A stretch of 64,000 nt of DNA from Morinoia aosen (lineage: Eukaryota > Arthropoda > Malacostraca > Amphipoda > Talitridae). The notes below the pieces were generated by a model. It was not told where the DNA came from, ran no database searches, and saw nothing but the letters and a program-made list of their open reading frames with translations. Shown here piece after piece: positions 43,231 through 53,289 of this stretch (positions are counted from its first letter, which is position 1; each line of letters opens with the position of its first letter). The stretch spans positions 49,665,602-49,729,601 of the forward strand of contig CM059563.1 in the NCBI GenBank assembly GCA_030386875.1. The letters are read 5' to 3'. A program made the translations under genes and the position numbers.

Positions 43231-44890
43231 ACTTCGAGCTGCTAAAAGGAAAAATTCGAAATCAAATGAAATTTTAACCAGAGACCTATTTTGATGAAGC
43301 AAAGTTAGCAAAAATTTTGCCAATCACAATCATCAAGCAATCTCAAAATTACTCTTCATGATATTACTACGTTGGACATGAGATATAAGTTTTCACACAC
43401 GAATATCAATCGCAAATCTTCAATTTTCCGATGAAGAAATTACGCGCTAGATCACACCATGCATGTAATCACAATTTGCTCCAGTGGATGTCATAACATT
43501 TCGTATTTACCACCGAAAATGTTGAAAGAAATGAGAATTTCGTGAGTTCAACCTCACTTTGAAATTAACGGGCTTGAGATCCCATGAGGATCACAGCATC
43601 ATTCGTTCCCATATGGGAGTCACAACACGATCGAGCGCTACGAACTGCATTGCAGAAGCCAGCATTTCAGAAACTGCCACTGATGCAGAGCTGTCTCAGT
43701 CCGCTGAGTTCAGGCAATGTTGAGTCGACGGTATCTTATCTCGTTATCGAGAGAAGGCTAAAACACAGATAGCAAGAATACAAAGAAAACACAGAATACA
43801 AAGAAAGTAAAGAAGCTTGATGTAAAAGAGTGTCTCGCTCACATCTACGGGCTTATAAAGGAAATTGAGGGCTAGAAAAATGAAGAACAAACTGACTAAC
43901 ATATGCACTGTCTATCATACTCTACATAGAGGAACTCCGAATTTCGGGTGTTCTCATAAAATACTCTATTATGTTTTATACAATCTAGTCTGTAGTTTAA
44001 TTTATACAATGACGAAATATGCATTATCAAACAAGTATTAGAATACTTTGTACCCAGATGATTGTGCTCCCAGCAACCTTTCCCCATCACATCCTTCGCG
44101 TCACACAGGAAACAGTTTTACTTCTCAAACTAAAACAAGCATGGAAAATGTCGGTAGCTAGGCAAAGTAATCGGCAAATTTAAAAAAAGCACGTCGACTT
44201 ACATCAAACTACTGGCAAAAATTTCAGAAAGAACTTGTGTCGTAGCGCACTGAATAGTAACGAAAAATATGGCAGGTGATACATACACAGATCGATTATT
44301 ATTTTTACCATTATTATTACCATTATTATTTAGTTTACAAGGATACCTCCACTCAGCATCGCGCATGCGTAACACCTGTAGATTCTTGTCACTCTTGTCT
44401 GCAACCTGCTTCGACCTGCCTCCTTATATCTCATGAGCAAGCATGTTACTCGTAACGTTTAAGTTACACTGTGAAGACTTACCAGTAGAAATAAAGAGTC
44501 GTGTCTACGATACCTCTGAATAAAATTGAGTAGTTCCACCCATTACGTTTCCTGTCAAGAACACCAAAACGCAGCATCTTATCATGACGAAGCTGAGTTT
44601 GAGAAATGATATTTGAAAGTCTTCAAGTATGAGCACCTTCATCCCATCATATAAGAAACTATATTACATCGCCACGTAAAATTGAAAAATTGTCCCTGAC
44701 AGAAAAATCATTGAGCGTCTCAAGCAGCAGACCAAATTTGTACCTGCTAGATGGGCATTCACTTGTGGACTTCATTGCACACTCTGCAGGAGGACGAATT
44801 TGCTTTTATTTGAACTATAGAAGTTAGCGAAATCTTTCAATAATCTTCGCGGTCTCCGTACATCAATACTAAGATATAGAGATGACTTAC
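43231..44890 (-). other. Intron following the 789-bp exon
   Basis: It begins at the GTAAGT donor at 44,890. Strongly A-rich on the + strand (27 A against 11 T in 44,161-44,220), that is T-rich on the transcribed gene's sense strand. No further exon was seen before 42.7 kb. Confidence 0.5.
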
Positions 44891-45679
44891 CTGGACAGAG
44901 TCGGAGTGCTCGCGACAGGAGACGACGAAGGCGTGACGTCAGACGCAGGTTCCGAGTCCGGGGCGAGTGTTACGTCGTCACCGTCTGACTCCTCACACCC
45001 ACCGCTGATGTCAGGCGGGTGGTCAGGCACCATGAGCTGGTCAAGCTGGGCATAGTCGCTAAGTTCACTGTACGGAGATGTTTCGTAACCAGAGTCTTTG
45101 GTCAGTTTACGGATGGACCTCCGATCTTTGCTGTCTCTCTCCCCAAGTCTGTCCTGAGGAACCTCACTCTCGTCCGGAACACCTGAGGAAGCCTCTCCGC
45201 TGTGGCAGTCCCGGCCAGGCTGCGGTAAAGTATCGGATCGACCGTCTGGAACTGCCAATGCAAGATCAGGTTCGTCGTGTGACGAATACCGCCGCTTGCC
45301 GTCGCTTTTATCGCAAAAGCTGTGGCTTCTCTCTTTGCTTGCAGCAGATGCAGATGAAAGTTCCCTTTCAGAAGCCCACGCATTTTTCTTTTTCAGGCCT
45401 TTCCCTTCGGAGTGGTAGTTAGGATTGGACCGATTCAAGGACGTTATGGAAGAATCATCTTTAGGGGCTCGACTCAAATTTCTCAGGAGTTTGGCAGCGG
45501 AGGTAAACCGACCGCTCTCCCGTCTTTCGGGGCGCTTTTCCCGCTTTTTGGAGGACCCACCACCGCTGCTGCTGCTGGAGCTGGTCTTGTGCTTGCCGCG
45601 GTCGCTGGAGCGGCTCGTGAGGGTGCTCGTGCTGCTGCTCACGCTGCTCGCGTCCTCATCGACACTCGTGTCCTTACTC
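44891..45679 (-). CDS. Internal exon of a large serine-rich protein
   Basis: This is the best host coding segment in the window: 789 bp, GC-rich against an AT-rich background, open throughout on the minus strand. It starts after a TTTTATTTTTGTCTGTCAG acceptor and ends at CCAG|GTAAGT. Both borders are phase 2 and the length is a multiple of three, so it can be included or skipped without frame change. The roughly 263 residues look disordered. A serine-rich start (TSSSSSSGGGSSKKREKRPE) is followed by a basic stretch around KLLRNLSR and charged, serine-rich sequence. A DSGYETSPYSELSDY segment lies at about 45,050-45,100, before an acidic end rich in D, P and S. There is no catalytic domain. Such tails occur in GTPase regulators and cytoskeletal scaffolds, but I cannot name the gene. 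Confidence 0.8.
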
Positions 45680-46001
45680 CTGACAGACAAAAATAAAAGT
45701 AAATTAATATCTTGTAATTGTTAACGTGATAATTATTTTCTTGTGAAGTTATAATTACAGATAGATAGGATTCGACTTGAGCCCATTCGATCATTTAAGT
45801 AATTTTTAACTAGTGATAGGCGAATGAAGCAGATAAATTAGCCCATTGGAGTTCATTTTAGGAGAGAAGTCATCAATGCTCTCATTATAACACCGTAGTT
45901 AGGAACAGGAAACAAACCGATATAAAATCTAAAACTCTTTACCGTCGACAACAGCAATATGTCAGGTGACATAAGGAGGCCAGAATCAAAGGATGAAGAG
46001 A
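45680..46001 (-). other. Intron upstream of the 789-bp exon, before the DIRS insertion
   Basis: The pyrimidine-rich acceptor tract for the exon occupies the first 20 bases on the minus strand. The remainder is unremarkable. Confidence 0.5.
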
Positions 46002-46074
46002 AATTCTTCGGGCCTTGTCATAAGCTAGGCCTAAAGTGAGAGACGATCGTCCGGGCACGTGGTTAGCAGTCAGT
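46002..46074 (+). repeat. Left inverted terminal repeat of the DIRS element
   Basis: It starts AATTCTTCGGGCCTTGTCAT. The inner part, about 38 bp ending in GGTTAGCAGTCAGT, matches the right end in reverse complement. The segment between, AAGCTAGGCCT, differs from the right end (TGCGTGGCAT) but matches the internal complementary region. Confidence 0.9.
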
Positions 46075-46261
46075 GATCGTTGAGACGTGGTGCCAGTCGG
46101 TCCTTGTGTGCGTTCGCAGTGAAGATTAACTAGTCGGTGAACTTCTATTATTTAACTAGATTAATATCAGATTTAAAGTTGTCGCGGTGAATTTAAAAGT
46201 TTAACTGCGGGGCATAGATGCTTGTTACCCAGCTTTTCATTCAATTCTATTCAAACAATAG

Positions 46262-46645
46262 AATTTTGCCTGGAAAATCAGCCTTGTGCCTGATTAAATA
46301 AACTAAGCACCAGGTTTGTCTTCCTCAGGCGTGACAATACTAATTACCTGGGTAATCTCCCTTAGGCGTGATTACAAGCTTTTATGACTAATAACCGGGC
46401 TAGTCATCCTCAGGTGTGACTAAATTTGTATTGATAAGCACCAGGTTTGTCTCCCTCAGGCGTGACAATTACTAATTACCTGGGTAATCTCCCTTGGGCG
46501 TGATTACAAGCTTCTATAACTATTGACCGGGCTAGTCATCCTCAGGTGTGACTAAAATTGTAATATTAAAGCACCAGGTTTGTCTCCCTTAGGCGTGACA
46601 ATTATTGCTTACCTGGGTAATCTCCCTTAGGCGTGATTACAGCTT
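46262..46645 (+). repeat. Leader array of small hairpins, 131-133 bp higher-order period
   Basis: Three alternating sub-units of about 43 bp are repeated almost three times. Each has ACCNGG, a stem, a loop close to TCCCTTAGGCG and the matching stem half. The stems differ: TTGTC/GACAA, GTAATC/GATTAC and TAGTCA/TGACTA. All pair perfectly. A more diverged unit with AATCA/TGATT precedes them at about 46,268. The array lies in the untranslated leader of the DIRS element. Confidence 0.9.
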
Positions 46646-46899
46646 TAATTTAACCTGGTAAAACCTTTGTAATGGAAGTTTTATGCTCTTCTGCTGCTCT
46701 AGTTGTTTTTGAAAATAAGCTGGGTAACCGCATTGAAACTTTTAAATCGACCGACCAATCATTGGATGAATAGAAATGAACTTAGGTTTGATCAAGCTAA
46801 ATTGTAGATCTAATATCTTGAGATAATAAAATTTCGTTTGAAAAATTATATTGTGTGTTTCAGTGATTGAAGATAATCGTAATTAGAAAATTTACTGAA

Positions 46900-48100
46900 A
46901 TGGCTTCTCTTGCGGACCTGGTGGGAGTTGACCCACCTGCAGAAAGTGAAACAAATTTGAGTGTGGCGGAAAAAGTAAAAATTTGTAAACGAAGTGAGAA
47001 GAATAAAGATAATTCTGTGTCCCAAGAGAGGAAAAAAGATTTCTAAAAGTGACAAAGCTGGCTTTGCCGTGGGTCCCAGTCATGTAAAGAGTGCTGCGGG
47101 GAAAAGGAAGAATTTGGAGGGGAATGGAGATTTGGACAAGATCTGCGAAGTTATGATGGATGGGTTGCCAAAATGAATGAAAATATTTCAAAATTAGGGA
47201 ATTCTATAGCTCAGAATATAACTTCCGAAATTATGCCTATGTTCGAATTGTCTAATGAAGAGCAATGTTTTGAAGAGGATTCTCTGGAAATTGAACAAGA
47301 GAGTGTTGAGGAATCTCTTTTAAGCCAGATTGAGAGAGAATTTGACAACGCAGAATTAACTGGTCCCAATATTAATGATGAAGTTTCTTCATTGATCGCG
47401 TCGATGATTTCCAAATCTAGCTCTGAAAATTCTAAAAAACGAAGAGAAGAAACTCATGTGAGACCGGAAAATTGTTCCTTCTTAGAAGTTCCTAAGCTGA
47501 ATCCGGAAGTTTTTACCTATTTACCCGCAAAAACTAAGCAACGTGAATGCGAGTTGCTGAAAATTCAAAAGAGCATCCTAATGAGTTTGACCCCAATTGG
47601 CAAATGCATGGAAAAAATCTTTGGAGCCATTAAAGAAGATTCTCAGGATAATCTTGATTTAACTCAGATTGTTAAAGACCTTTCAGATTCAGTTGCTTTT
47701 ATTGGAACTGCTAATCTGGACCTGGTCAACTGCAGGAAGGAGGCTATGAAGCCTGATTTGCCTTCCAATTTTGCAAAGCTCTGTAAAAGGGAAGAATATT
47801 TTTCTGGCCTTTGGTTACTAGGAGAAAATTTCAGTCAGAAAGTGAAGGAAATTACGGAGTTGAATAAAATTTCCGCTCACATTGGGCAAGATAAGTTTTA
47901 TAGAGGTAATTTTCAAAGCAGAAGCAGAGGAGCAAGTTCTAGATTTCCCAGTTTAAGAGCAAGGTGTAGCTCCACTGGAAGAAGAACGGGTAGATTTAGT
48001 CCTTTCCAAGTTCAACGCTCGGGAAACGGTCGGCGCCCCTCCGGAGATGCTCGGAAGCAAAGGGGCAGAAATTATTGGAACAGGTTAGTTCTCCTGTAAA
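46900..48100 (+). pseudogene. Gag-like region of the DIRS element (fossil)
   Basis: A region in the Gag position, first coding block before the RT. Acidic, glutamate-rich sequence comes first, then a conserved-looking central part, then a basic, arginine/serine/glycine-rich end around RGNFQSRSRGASSRF that suits nucleic-acid binding. I see no CCHC zinc knuckle. It overlaps the start of the RT region slightly. Confidence 0.75.
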
Positions 48101-49670
48101 GACTTGTGGTTTCAATGCTGGCAATATTAAAAATTTTTCAAAGGTTTGGAGTACCTTAACGACAGATAAATTCATTATAGATCTTGTATCTGGTTGTGAA
48201 ATTGAATTTTCTGATAAAGTGCCCTTGCGTGTAATCCCTCCTAAAGAAATAGAATTTTCGATGAACGAGTCCAAGCTTGTTGACGAGAAAATTGAAGAAT
48301 TCCTTGAAACGGGGGTAATTGAACCTGCTGTTCATTCTGCTTTTCAGTTTGTGTCCAAAATATTTATGCGTCCGAAACGCGATGGTGGGATCAGAATAAT
48401 TTTAGACCTTGCAGAATTAAATAAGTACGTAACTTACAAGAAATTTAAAATGGAGACTTTGCAAACCACTCTTGGTTTAATTGAGCAAGGAAATTTTCTG
48501 ACTTCGGTGGACTTGAAAAATGCATATTTTACTGTCCCTGTTGCTAATAGATTCAGGTGTTTTTTACGTTTCACCTGGATGAATCAGCTGTATCAGTTCG
48601 CGTGCTTACCGAATGGGCTCTCTTGTGCGCCCAGACTCTTCACGAAATTATTGAAGCCGGTTTTTGCTTCATTACGGTCTCGAGGGTTTCTGTCAACGTA
48701 TTACCTGGATGATTCACTGTTGATTGGTACTTCTTATCAGGAGTGTTTGACTAATGTCGCATCGACCATTGAACTTTTTGAGAGTCTTGGGTTTGTGATC
48801 AATCATGATAAGTCAAATTTAATCCCTTCTCGAAATATTCAATTCTTGGGGTTTCGTATCGATACAGTCAACATGAAAGTTTATTTGACGGACGAGAAAA
48901 AAGTCAAGATTTATAATCAGTCACTCGAGCTTCAGACTAAGTCTAGAATTAGCATTAGAGACTTGGCAATGTATATTGGATGCTTGGTGTCTTGCTTTCC
49001 TGGAGTCCAGTTTGGAGCTCTCAACTATAGGTCTCTTGAGCAGAACAAAAACTTTGGGCTAAAACTAAGTCGAGGTGAATTTGATGCTTCTGTTGAACTA
49101 TCAGAAGACTCAAAAATTGATATAAGATGGTGGATTGAGAATGTGTTTAAAATTTTTTTTTTGTCCTATCAAGCATGAAGAGTTTAAAGTAGTGATATAC
49201 ACTGACGCGAGTTCAAGCATATGGGGGTGTGCCGAGATGGTAATTGCGATGGTGGCCCATGGTCTGAGATTGATAGTTGCCTGCATATCAATGCACTTGA
49301 GATGAAAGCAATCTTGAATGGGCTATATAGTTCATGTAAAAATGAAAAGAATTGCCATATTCGAATTAAAAGCGATAACATGACAGCTATTCAATATATC
49401 AATCATATGGGAGGTTTGAGTTCCCTCATTTGCAACAATATTTCGAAAGAAATATGGAATTGGGCTATTAGAGGCAATATTTGGATATCGGCAGAATTTA
49501 TTCAAGGCTCGGAGAATGTGCTAGCGGATAAAGCTAGTAGGATATTTCATCACGCTACTGAATGGAGTATTCCTCAAGAAGTTTTCCAACAAATTACGGA
49601 TTATTTAGGTGTCCCAAATATTGACCTCTTTGTATCGAAACTAAACTTCTTCTCCCCAAACATGTATTGA
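48075..49670 (+). pseudogene. Reverse transcriptase / RNase H region of the DIRS element (fossil)
   Basis: RT motifs are clear: VDLKNAYFTVPV (first catalytic aspartate), NGLSCAPRLFTKLL, and the YLDD box. RNase H follows with YTDASSSIWG, NALEMKAIL, IKSDNMTAIQYINH and SENVLADKASR. It ends in the DIRS-typical IDLFVSKLN segment. RT-RNase H order and the following recombinase are diagnostic of DIRS elements. No integrase or protease is present. Confidence 0.92.
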
Positions 49671-49743
49671 AACTCCCTTTCTCGGAGAATCATCATGCTC
49701 TCCATTCTCAGATGAGACTGATTGGAGGTCGCGTATCAGGGGA

Positions 49744-50715
49744 TTGTGCGAAAAGAGATGCTTTTCGGAAGACGTTACCAACACTATCATGTGCTCCTGG
49801 AGACCTTCAACCCATAAGCAGTACAAAACATATATTGGAAAGTGGATACGTTTCTGTATTTCAAGGAAAATTGATCCCCTTGAATACAATTTGAATTCTG
49901 TTCTGAATTTCTTGCAAAACTTGTTCAATAATGATGCAAGTTATAGCGCCGTCAATTCTGCGAGGTCGGCCTTATCAAACTTTATACTTCCGTTAAACGA
50001 CATTAGTATCGGATAGAACAAAATTGTGACGAGATTTATGGAAGGCATTTTCGAAAAATCTCCACTGAAGGCTAAATATGAAGTCATTTGGGACGCCAGT
50101 ATTGTGCTGAATTATTTAAAAAACTTACATCCATTATGGGAGCTTGATCTTAAAACTCTAACGCCCAAACTTGTTATGTTGCTGGCTCTCATTACGGCCC
50201 AGAGAGTACAAACTTTGTCTCTGTTAAAAATAGACAATATGAAACGGGGCGACTCTTCGATTTCATTTTTTATCAAAAGTCATTTGAAACATCACTCTCA
50301 TCGGAATAATAGAAATAGAATAATAACTCTTAAATCATACAATGAACCTTCATTATGTGAATATAAAACTTTATCAGAATATCTCGAACGCACGAAGAAG
50401 CTCCGTAAGGGAGAAAATCAGATGTTAATAAGTTATCAAGCTACTCATGCTAAAATTGGTACAAGCACCATTAGTAGGTGGCTAAAGAAAGTTCTATATG
50501 AAAGTGGAGTGGATGTCGACTTCTATGGAGCACATAGTACCAGATCTGCCGCTGTTTCTAAAGTTTATAATGAAATTGGGAACATGGATAATGTACTCAA
50601 CACTGCAGGATGGAAGAATTCTGTGACATTCGCCACTTTCTACAACAAGCCCATCACGACTGATGAATTTGCCGAAATTGTTCTAAGCTCGGGGCAAACA
50701 TATAACTCGCTTTAA
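49744..50715 (+). pseudogene. Tyrosine recombinase region of the DIRS element (fossil)
   Basis: The N-terminal arm includes the SWRPSTHKQYKTYI-type core-binding segment. The catalytic part shows the family's first arginine in ITAQRVQTLSLL, the HxxR motif as AHSTRSAAV, and the tyrosine in GWKNSVTFATFYNKP. These are the R-HxxR-Y residues expected of an active-site fold. In the family this enzyme inserts a circular DNA intermediate instead of using a DDE integrase. Confidence 0.9.
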
Positions 50716-50718
50716 AAT

Positions 50719-50837
50719 CTCACTTTAGGCCTAGCTTATGACAAAGCCCGAAGAATTAGACAGTTAAACGACACTTACCTGCAAGTGGATGTTTGACTTG
50801 AATTCTTCGGCGCCTTGTCATTGCGTGGCATAAAGTG
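50719..50837 (+). repeat. Internal complementary region of the DIRS element
   Basis: Bases 50,719-50,757 are the reverse complement of the left terminus. Bases 50,758-50,837 are the reverse complement of the right terminus (50,971-51,050) with very few differences. The join of the two copies the circle junction used in DIRS replication models. Together with the right end it makes an 80-bp inverted repeat with a 133-bp loop. Confidence 0.9.
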
Positions 50838-50933
50838 CCCGCCCATGTTAATTTAAGAGAGTTATTAATTATCACCCATCCCTGCTATGCCACGCAATGG
50901 AGTTATTATTTGCCCCGGACTACTAACTTTGAA

Positions 50934-51050
50934 GACTGACTGCTAACCACGTGCCCGGACGATCGTCTCTCACTTTATGCCACGCAATGACAAGGCGCCG
51001 AAGAATTCAAGTCAAACATCCACTTACAGGTAAGTGTCGTTTAACTGTCT
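50934..51050 (+). repeat. Right inverted terminal region of the DIRS element
   Basis: The inner part (about 50,934-50,971) pairs with the left end, and 50,971-51,050 pairs with the internal complementary region. Near the tip is CACTTACAGGTAAGTG, a near-palindrome that shows a GTAAGT splice-donor-like motif on both strands. Confidence 0.88.
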
Positions 51051-51959
51051 AAATAGTTTAAAACAAATGAGTGATCAACACTATACCAATATAAAAATTA
51101 TGCACACCAACATATTGAAGAAGTTCTTAAAAGTCTAGTTTTAACCGAAACTTCACACGAAAGACAAGAAAAAAATTTCCAAACATGAATACCATAATAT
51201 TCAGACGCTCGAAATGACAACATTACGCATGAACAAAAACAATGTAATACACAGTAAATGAATCTAAAGCCTCGGACTTTCAGCGCGTCAAGTTGGGCTC
51301 TCCCACATGCGCGAAAACACGGAGTGTATCAGGAAACAAGGAAATGATTATCTCGCTCTACGAACGCATAATCTACACGCATTCAACAGACATCCGATCA
51401 TCCAAGCTCGTAACAGGCACGAATAAGGCCGTTGTGAGAAAGGCATCCTGAGCATTACCTCCACAGGGCATCAAACAGGGCTGTGAAATACACCAGAGTT
51501 GTCTTGAAATTCATGAAGTAAAAAGCTCGAATAGTTCTTACACTAATTAAAACTTTTCGATAGTAAGAAGAGCTTCCAAAATTCAGGCACAAACAGTTGA
51601 GACCCAATGAGAAAAACTACCGCATGAGTTTTTGAATGACCAAATCCGAAGAAATTAAAACATCAGAAGATTTACAACATTACAGATGCCTTCATTTCCT
51701 CTTGAGCTGAATCGTTCGTTACGCACGCTAACTTTGGTTAAAATGCCATTTCCCAAAATAAAATTCATCAGTCTAAATCTCAGTTTGCTAAATAATTGAA
51801 GAACACATTTAACAGCACCACATTACAAATATGGAAAAATTAGTTCAAACTGATTGCCCATAACATGAATCGATTCTAGAAAACGAGTTATATTCAGAAG
51901 GACTTGTCAGGCTTCAAAATAATGCCGATAACAAGTATTACGAAATTTTATCGCAAATA
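51051..51959. other. Non-coding sequence between the DIRS element and a family A copy
   Basis: A-rich on the + strand. It holds, at 51,217-51,238, the 22-bp sequence that reappears inside the family A copy at 52.0 kb. Confidence 0.45.
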
Positions 51960-51973
51960 TGCTCATGGCAAGA

Positions 51974-52363
51974 GATTAAGATTAAGATTATAAGTTAGTT
52001 TAAGCCTCCCTAACCGCTACTAAAATGGGCGTATCGAAGAGAGGAAGGGAAAGGCACCATTTAGTATGGAGATAAGAGAATGAGGAATCTAAGCAGAAGG
52101 GGCATAGAAACAGCAAGTTAAGAAAGAAGTTGATGAAATAAGATAAAAATTGAAGAAGAAAGTCAGAGGTGCTGAAAAACAACATTACGCATGAACAAAA
52201 TGTTTCGGTAGTGAACCGAAAAAAGGTAGTCCTTAATATTACAAAAAAAAAAAATTTTATTTCAACAAAAAGAAGGCCTACCTAACTCTCAGCTCGGGCC
52301 CTCACATTGTCCTTCTGGGAGCGCTAATTCCCATAGATACAATAGTTGTATCCTCCTGAAGGG
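51974..52363 (-). mobile_element. Family A retroposon, full length, with a foreign 22-bp insert
   Basis: Flanked by a perfect 14-bp target duplication, TGCTCATGGCAAGA (51,960-51,973 and 52,364-52,377). The tail is three GATTAA units. Inside, at 52,179-52,200, the usual 'caggacag' block is replaced by a 22-bp sequence identical to 51,217-51,238, about 960 bp to the left. Confidence 0.92.
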
Positions 52364-52377
52364 TGCTCATGGCAAGA

Positions 52378-53289
52378 ACACAAACATAAATCTTATAATT
52401 AACATTTGAACTTGGTTTCCAACAAACGCCAATGCATATCGCACTTCGAGCGAAGAATAAACCGAAAAACGAGTATTTCACACAGTCAGCTCATATTTAG
52501 GATCTTCACCAAGACGCCCGCAGAACGACATTAATGTTGAGCAAAGCGCTGCACGCGAGCTGCCCAGACCCACTTTCCATAGGCATGCACTTGGTCAAGT
52601 GCGTCTCTGCATGGAGTTGGTTACACACATTCCCTGCAGGGACCCTCGCTGAGACTACGGCCAATATCAAGCCGTAAAGAGCCTCAGGACTTTATTAAGG
52701 GCGGTCCATGGTAGCTTCACAGTAACTTGCAGCATGTCGTTAGACTTACTGATGCAAGCGCCTACACAGGCGAAGAATTATACAACTAGCCCAGCGGGGC
52801 TTCAAAGAGGTGCGATGAAAAAAGGATCCCTCTTCAAGCTTCAGAACATTAAAAATAAAACGAAAGAAAACAAGAAGCACGTACGCCGTGTTAATATAAC
52901 ATTTTAATTCCATGTGCTAAACACTAAGTACTGGAAACAGTTCTTACTAAACACACACAAATTTTGAGGGTCCAAGTATTTGCATTAATTTACGAAGCAC
53001 ACCAGCCCAGCAAATAAGTGACTCGTTTCATACACAGCTTCGAATGCCGCGCTCCATCTCAAACATAAAACGTTGAACAAATCGTCCAGTAATTCCTAGG
53101 CATTTTCATCTTATCAAGTGCGGTTTCTTTAATGGAGGGCGGATCCCAAAAGTGATGTGGCTTGCTTATCAAGTGATAACTTTGCGAACGAATAATGTTA
53201 TAGCAAGAAAATACGTAACAGAATTAATTGCAGTGTGCACAAACGATTATGCGCGAGTGTCAAGTAGAAGATACCCTTACTTTACCATT
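52378..53289. other. Non-coding, probably intronic sequence
   Basis: A GC-richer patch lies at 52,500-52,820. No coding support or repeat. Confidence 0.45.

Follow-up and report, generated by a model that had tools for sequence, protein, structure and literature searches.

A DIRS1-like retrotransposon copy of Morinoia aosen carries ten predicted hairpin units in its 5' leader, and the explanation that we favour, with a rough probability of 0.43, is that they form a family-specific multi-copy RNA hairpin element that would be bound by a protein. The copy belongs to a family that we call F1 and is located in the window, i.e. the whole stretch of 64,000 nucleotides that was analysed. Coordinates without a locus or contig name refer to this window, and all features given for it lie on the forward strand. 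The F1 array is real, specific to the family and situated at a place where other retrotransposons commonly have arrays.

The array occupies positions 46268-46683, downstream of the left terminal repeat and ahead of gag, with the unit order D-A-B-C-A-B-C-A-B-E. An exhaustive stem search of 46250-46710 showed that each unit combines the motif RCCNGG with a downstream hairpin whose stem of 5-6 bp is perfect. The series begins with unit D (46268-46296; GCCTGG, stem AATCA/TGATT at 46276) and continues with A1 (46309-46337; ACCAGG, stem TTGTC/GACAA at 46316), B1 (46346-46375; ACCTGG, stem GTAATC/GATTAC at 46352) and C1 (46394-46422; ACCGGG, stem TAGTCA/TGACTA at 46401). Then follow A2 (46440-46468, stem at 46447), B2 (46478-46507, stem at 46484), C2 (46526-46554, stem at 46533), A3 (46573-46601, stem at 46580) and B3 (46611-46640, stem at 46617). 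These nine units were also recovered by a covariance model, R1, a comparison that the earlier note on this DNA had proposed. They scored 38.7-53.7 bits, with unit D at 38.7, and the next match reached 14.1 bits (E 0.38); since the model was built from the same nine units and six from another F1 locus (L063), this shows its specificity and not an independent discovery. The last unit, E (46653-46683; ACCTGG, stem TAAAAC/GTTTTA, 13-nt loop), was found by the stem search and was not detected by R1, which had been built without it. TRF reported a tandem array at 46304-46645 with a period of 132 and 2.6 copies, which equals the A-B-C period. In the 1.99-Gb genome (29 contigs) the pattern ACCNGGN6TCCCTYAGGCGTGA occurred 194 times and its reversed control 0 times. 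A search of 44500-52500 against Rfam with E up to 10 gave four matches, all below the gathering scores and none in the array.

The earlier note had counted at least eight units with ACCNGG and perfect stems. Stem search, TRF and covariance model agree with this, with the corrections that there are ten units and that the motif reads RCCNGG. Moreover, A1-A3, B1-B3 and C1-C2 are tandem duplicates, which leaves five unit types and not eight independent units. The three different stems that had been described each pair perfectly, but in register (A TTGTC, B TAATC, C TAGTC) they differ at only two of five pairs. A fourth, diverged unit with AATCA/TGATT is indeed present as D, and the further diverged unit E lies outside the range covered by the note. 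The loop, by comparison, is not the fixed TCCCTYAGGCG that had been proposed. A similar 12-nt loop is common to the array units (13 nt in E), copies differ in its tip (columns 22-23, YR), unit C has ATCCTCAGGTGT, and the loops of D and E differ. A C-G closing pair is present in the hairpins of all ten units, and the consensus of all units but E combines it with extra apical pairs, a bulged 3'-side pyrimidine and a 3-nt tip UYR. On its own, RNAalifold predicted the same eight pairs (columns 12-16/29-33, 18/27, 19/25 and 20/24), in which column 26 bulges out and the tip is formed by columns 21-23, using an alignment of 15 units that comprised nine from the window and six from L063; unit E was omitted for its 13-nt loop.

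The host copy extends from 46004 to 51053. Similarity among 29 aligned copies begins at 46002-46005 with the first letters ATTCTTCGGG, and the right end near 51053 is approximate, as it was placed from inverted repeats. The left terminal repeat (46004-46074) was found by an inverted-repeat search, in which 46002-46041 was complementary to 50718-50757 and 46028-46074 to 50935-50981. The gag region (46900-48099; ATG at 46900, listed open frame from 47173) has an interrupted frame in this copy. Downstream lie the reverse transcriptase (RT; 48075-49178; RVT_1, E 7.6e-20), an RNase H-like domain (49221-49670; RVT_3, E 3.8e-4, 20.8 bits, slightly under the curated cut-off of 21.6) and a tyrosine recombinase (50026-50715; Phage_integrase, E 1.4e-9, with an HSTR motif in the translation). 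They are followed by an internal complementary region (ICR; 50718-50837) that is complementary to both termini (inverted-repeat pairs I1 and I3) and by the right terminal repeat (50935-51052; pairs I1 and I2), which probably includes an extension on its right. DIRS1-like elements typically also encode a methyltransferase domain. The copy was compared for RT and RNase H-like domains, a tyrosine recombinase, inverted termini, an ICR and an ATT start and has all of these; we regard it as DIRS1-like because this layout agrees with the one in PMC3266345, and its length of about 5.05 kb compares with an average of 5160 given there. A word search of the main text of PMC3266345 and of PMC2685390 found no DIRS leader array, and literature searches aimed at such arrays showed none either, with subscription journals mostly outside the literature searched. 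The window copy is decayed, with RT, RNase H and recombinase in separate frames, and F1 sister loci contain long open frames of 707 and 406 aa. The sequence TCAGT/TCAGTTT, which we take to resemble the arthropod initiator, occurs at 46070-46074 near the inner end of the F1 terminal repeat and at about 223-229 of L064 in the 5' region of a second family, F2, in both cases upstream of the array. A search of IMG/VR for relatives of the F1 RT gave eight pattern matches, none of which was confirmed.

A pairing constraint on the arms of the array is supported by good evidence in the compared sequences, albeit from few independent events. In the five unit types the true arm partners form 26 of 30 pairs and all 119 other assignments score lower (mean over the 120, 18.8; 20.2 counting G-U), so that the result of this permutation test, 1/120, is the lowest value attainable. 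Across the 15 aligned units 95.5% of the cells are paired compared with 83.9% in shuffles, and 13 cells show two-sided changes compared with a shuffled mean of 4.0; neither value was reached in any of 500 shuffles. When the partner columns were slid by 1-3, pairing fell to 30-51%. A third covarying pair is located at column 18-27, where A and B have C-G, C has U-G and D has G-C. Two measures count against an RNA structure: two-sided change is found at three pairs only, a count that 75 of 500 shuffles match, and 478 of 500 shuffles have at least as many further pair types. Besides, none of the single-copy stem changes in the compared copies was compensated. Covariation, which had been put forward as strong evidence for a selected structure, therefore holds as evidence for constrained pairing and is weaker than claimed in the number of events behind it.

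Differences between copies point in a similar direction. Between the A-B-C blocks 1 and 2, differences affect 3 of the 88 core columns and 9 of the 45 spacer columns (p 0.003). Change rates were determined for 33 copies (28 young, 5 old) against the window copy, excluding L001, L013, L084 and L085 for identity with the window or for inserts. In the young copies, distinct changes per site amounted to 0.039 in stems, 0.033 in RCCNGG, 0.040 in the presumed arms of an enclosing stem, 0.083 in loops, 0.111 in spacers and 0.124 elsewhere; the corresponding values in the old copies were 0.039, 0.033, 0.080, 0.099, 0.097 and 0.064. When the copies were pooled, changes were found in 14/144 paired, 4/54 RCCNGG, 9/54 unpaired loop and 9/75 enclosing-arm columns and in 70/402 columns outside the cores. 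The contrast was then weaker: the depletion relative to the outside columns was mild for paired columns (p 0.03) and not significant for RCCNGG (p 0.075) and the presumed enclosing arms (p 0.31), and the difference between paired and loop columns was not significant either (p 0.21).

An RNA rather than a DNA role is favoured because pairing is kept while the bases change and because unit C has a U-G at column 18-27. Compared with shuffles, the array alone reached a modest z of -2.3 in sense and -1.7 in antisense orientation, and a gag stretch of equal length, with -0.2 and -2.5, counts against the RNA reading. The leader of a third family, F3, gave -2.6 and -2.4. For the wider region 46185-46760 z was -5.6, partly due to flanking complementarity that is itself weak. 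In local context the stems have predicted pair probabilities of mostly 0.2-0.8; unit E reaches about 0.17 and unit D 0.06. In adjacent A and B units the RCCNGG motifs are complementary to each other over 6 bp (CCAGGT/ACCTGG; 46441-46446 with 46478-46483 and 46574-46579 with 46611-46616), with a predicted pair probability of 0.5-0.8. Further structures were considered. The flanking complementarity could in principle form a long-range stem around the array, with a left arm at 46185-46235 and a right arm at 46717-46753 (46185-46210 with 46728-46753 and 46224-46235 with 46717-46728), and it is kept as a possibility only, given that 6 of 200 shuffled flanks score equally, that its sites are not significantly depleted of changes and that the changes are uncompensated. 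A three-arm switch, in which an extra arm upstream of RCCNGG pairs with the 5' arm, was rejected: 6 of 120 permutations equalled it, and the runs at A units are only 2-3 bp long. Strand asymmetry of the stem changes, with about six pairing-keeping transitions in sense and three in antisense counted by eye, was too sparse to distinguish RNA from DNA.

Within F1 a unit scan covered 37 loci, namely the window copy (L001), L002-L030, L063 and L083-L088. The order DABCABCABE was found in 30 of them, DABCABE in five, DABACABE with an insert in L085 and two successive arrays in L013. L001-L030 had been retrieved by leader sequence, so the array is present in them by construction, and most of the other seven already had array matches. 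Therefore, 30 loci chosen by RT protein alone (L031-L060, L031 being the window copy) are more informative, and 25 of these show units B-E (one as A-B-E), in stretches that reach back just to the last units. The remaining five, L032, L041, L048, L052 and L055, have no units in reach. For all of these but L052 the genome leader search gives a leader in the same orientation upstream of the stretch (C8:594269, C20:73396694, C3:41597684 and C2:21305242). L052 (G000:C8:46160076-46164158; C8:46161576) had neither an array in its stretch nor an upstream match in the genome leader search and may be without the array. In the course of its history the array has either gained or lost an A-B-C block. As all five DABCABE loci (L063, L083, L084, L087 and L088) belong to the seven that were retrieved for their divergence, the extra block is probably the younger state. 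In L013 (G000:C7:68482909-68484151) the two leader arrays follow each other directly, the first lacking the second C unit according to the scan. Contig C6 carries several of the F1 copies that are more strongly diverged or broken, near 1.96, 2.04, 6.9, 50.0 and 92.0 Mb.

The comparison with the other DIRS families of this genome shows how far the array is shared. An RT-protein search, for which 111 of 13,270 candidates were scored, yielded among the 112 matches listed F1, F2 (mostly 43-51% identity) and F3 (35-37%); expressed as one value per family, RT identity is 49% for F2 and 36% for F3. The same grouping emerged from a recombinase search in which 150 of 153 candidates were scored and 143 matches obtained, with identities of about 88-100% (apart from a short piece at 59%), 39-48% and 26-39%. 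F2 also carries a leader array, with a 35-bp unit in 7-12 copies as counted by a regular expression, in 8 of 11 stretches (L061, L064, L065, L067, L068, L070, L072 and L073; at 1604-1956 in L061). The uncounted stretches are L071, which has no leader, L066, which ends before it, and L069, which is a different stretch. The distance between the 5' end and the first F2 unit was measured in seven copies and is 256 nt in four of them and 255, 244 and 194 nt in the rest; the first F1 unit lies 264 nt inside the left end. A homology of the two arrays, suggested by GCACC in both, was rejected, as 159 of 300 shuffles were as high as the score of 7. We also rejected the UUCG-type hairpin of F2 as a sign of a general RNA hairpin array, since the sense fold showed no excess (z +1.9).

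In F3 no tandem array was found by TRF at score 30 in any of the seven leaders for which the start of gag was identified (L062, L074-L078 and L081; 267-271 nt in six, L077 unmeasured), and the leaders of F1 and F2 were positive under the same run. Three F3-like stretches without an identified leader (L079, L080 and L082) are outside this count. A perfect 7-bp hairpin, ACCGGAA/TTCCGGT, is present in six of the seven F3 leaders, at +131 from the 5' end in L074-L076, L078 and L081 and also in L077. At G000:C9:51285271-51575921 six F3-like recombinase loci, the majority interrupted by stops, follow one another at distances of about 46-86 kb, an arrangement that resembles a tandem duplication of one segment. 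The recombinase search shows that F3 encodes a recombinase. As F3 has no array and that of F2 is unrelated, the F1 array is dispensable for the recombinase and for DIRS retrotransposition in general, and judged by these comparisons it is a family-specific accessory outside the core DIRS mechanism. Related elements lacking the array, which the earlier note had named as the finding that would speak against it, thus exist between families; within F1 the possible exception is L052, one of the 30 loci chosen by RT.

In all three DIRS families a sequence resembling a 3' splice site (pyrimidines followed by CAG) is located 2-36 nt upstream of the gag ATG (window 46845-46900; L061 at about 2000-2046; ahead of gag in L074-L078). 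TTTCAG is kept before gag in 30 of 31 F1 and 8 of 9 F2 copies, and the F1 leader array may lie within an intron.

Among the other explanations, the main rival is a DNA-level array of host-protein sites, an enhancer or insulator in which the dyad symmetry would be part of the site; we regard this as possible and as somewhat less likely than the RNA element. Tandem repeats are frequent in retrotransposon 5'-UTRs, with 19 of 49 D. melanogaster LTR elements (39%) reported in PMC8872304, 5'-UTR repeat arrays can have enhancer or insulator roles (PMC7168160), and the F2 array, unrelated and without a sense folding excess, has 7-12 copies at a similar distance from the 5' end. The half-sites of a dimer on duplex DNA, however, should stay constant, and symmetric changes in both arms would be unexpected. 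Moreover, there was no convincing match to the Su(Hw) or CTCF consensus, the two factors compared: of 1000 shuffles 77 were as close for F2 and Su(Hw), 527 for F2 and CTCF, 889 for F1 and Su(Hw) and 940 for F1 and CTCF, and one F1 A-B-C block came at best within 3 mismatches of a gypsy-type Su(Hw) site. For Sireviruses PMC2829016 describes palindromic repeated motifs, which would also suit a DNA site. Like the F1 units these are non-coding and combine dyad symmetry with intervening bases, but their place is the 3' LTR, ahead of the TATA box, with two elements carrying them near ENV as well, and most are built around a CGG-CCG core, whereas F1 has varying arms around a similar loop in the leader.

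The array could also be a by-product minisatellite without selected function, in which template switching during reverse transcription or replication kept the inverted repeats perfect and tandem duplication spread them. Array changes that involve entire blocks (five diverged copies have D-A-B-C-A-B-E and 30 copies D-A-B-C-A-B-C-A-B-E), the variable copy number in F2 (7-12) and arms complementary to the 5' arm upstream of some units, though equalled in 6 of 120 permutations, are what such a process might leave behind. It is nevertheless an unlikely origin, as cores change less than spacers, RCCNGG changes as rarely as the stem although it lies outside it, and one-sided stem changes in single copies were not converted into matching pairs. 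Hardly credible is the suggestion of the earlier note that the array is a DNA site for the element's own tyrosine recombinase. The element does encode this enzyme, and spaced short inverted repeats resemble recombinase half-sites in general form, but F3 has a recombinase and no array in 7/7 leaders, and the F2 array is unrelated. Besides, the circular junction of DIRS elements is set by the termini and the ICR according to PMC3266345, and the F1 array starts well inside the left end.

An RNA hairpin element bound by a protein consequently remains our preferred explanation, held with slightly lowered confidence because of the gag folding control, two of the five covariation measures and the partly circular count of its presence. 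From its position behind the left terminal repeat and ahead of gag, the array would be transcribed; for Dictyostelium DIRS-1 PMC4482531 describes promoter activity of both terminal repeats. A protein that reads RCCNGG together with the hairpin shape would dock on many units side by side, and this multivalent docking might single out the RNA of the element to be packaged, exported or translated. A packaging array, as already proposed in the earlier note, is conceivable only as a device of this family, since F3 without an array shows that it is not general to DIRS. Candidates for the protein are a host RNA-binding protein and the element's Gag. In the F1 translation the C-terminal part of Gag has a high content of R and G, and the same holds for F2 and F3, as read by eye from the DNA; since F3 shares this feature and has no array, it is not specific support.

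Retroviral and Ty leaders contain packaging structures, with structured RNA near the gag start. F1 differs from these in that it has ten similar predicted hairpins, most of them derived from duplication, and in that the related family F3 is without them. The closest parallel in position is given by the 5'-UTR arrays of Drosophila LTR elements, namely the gypsy Su(Hw) insulator, ZAM, Tirant, accord and the copia leader enhancer, which according to PMC7168160 and PMC8872304 share with F1 short tandem units before gag, a polymorphic organisation and a reading as multi-copy protein-binding sites. In contrast, the host of the F1 array is a DIRS and not an LTR element, its units are hairpins whose arms covary between types, and they gave no convincing match to the known Su(Hw) or CTCF motifs. 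A broader scenario, which appears quite improbable to us, is that the co-resident DIRS families each built their own leader array, ten RNA hairpins in F1 and the 35-bp units in F2, as diversifying tags by which their own Gag or a host factor would select the RNA.

DIRS elements copy themselves without LTRs or integrase, and to our knowledge the mechanism by which their RNA is selected for replication is not known. A compact, repeated leader hairpin in a family with many near-identical copies would offer a handle on this selection. Moreover, the pattern of recurrent tandem arrays in the leader, familiar from LTR elements, is extended to DIRS.
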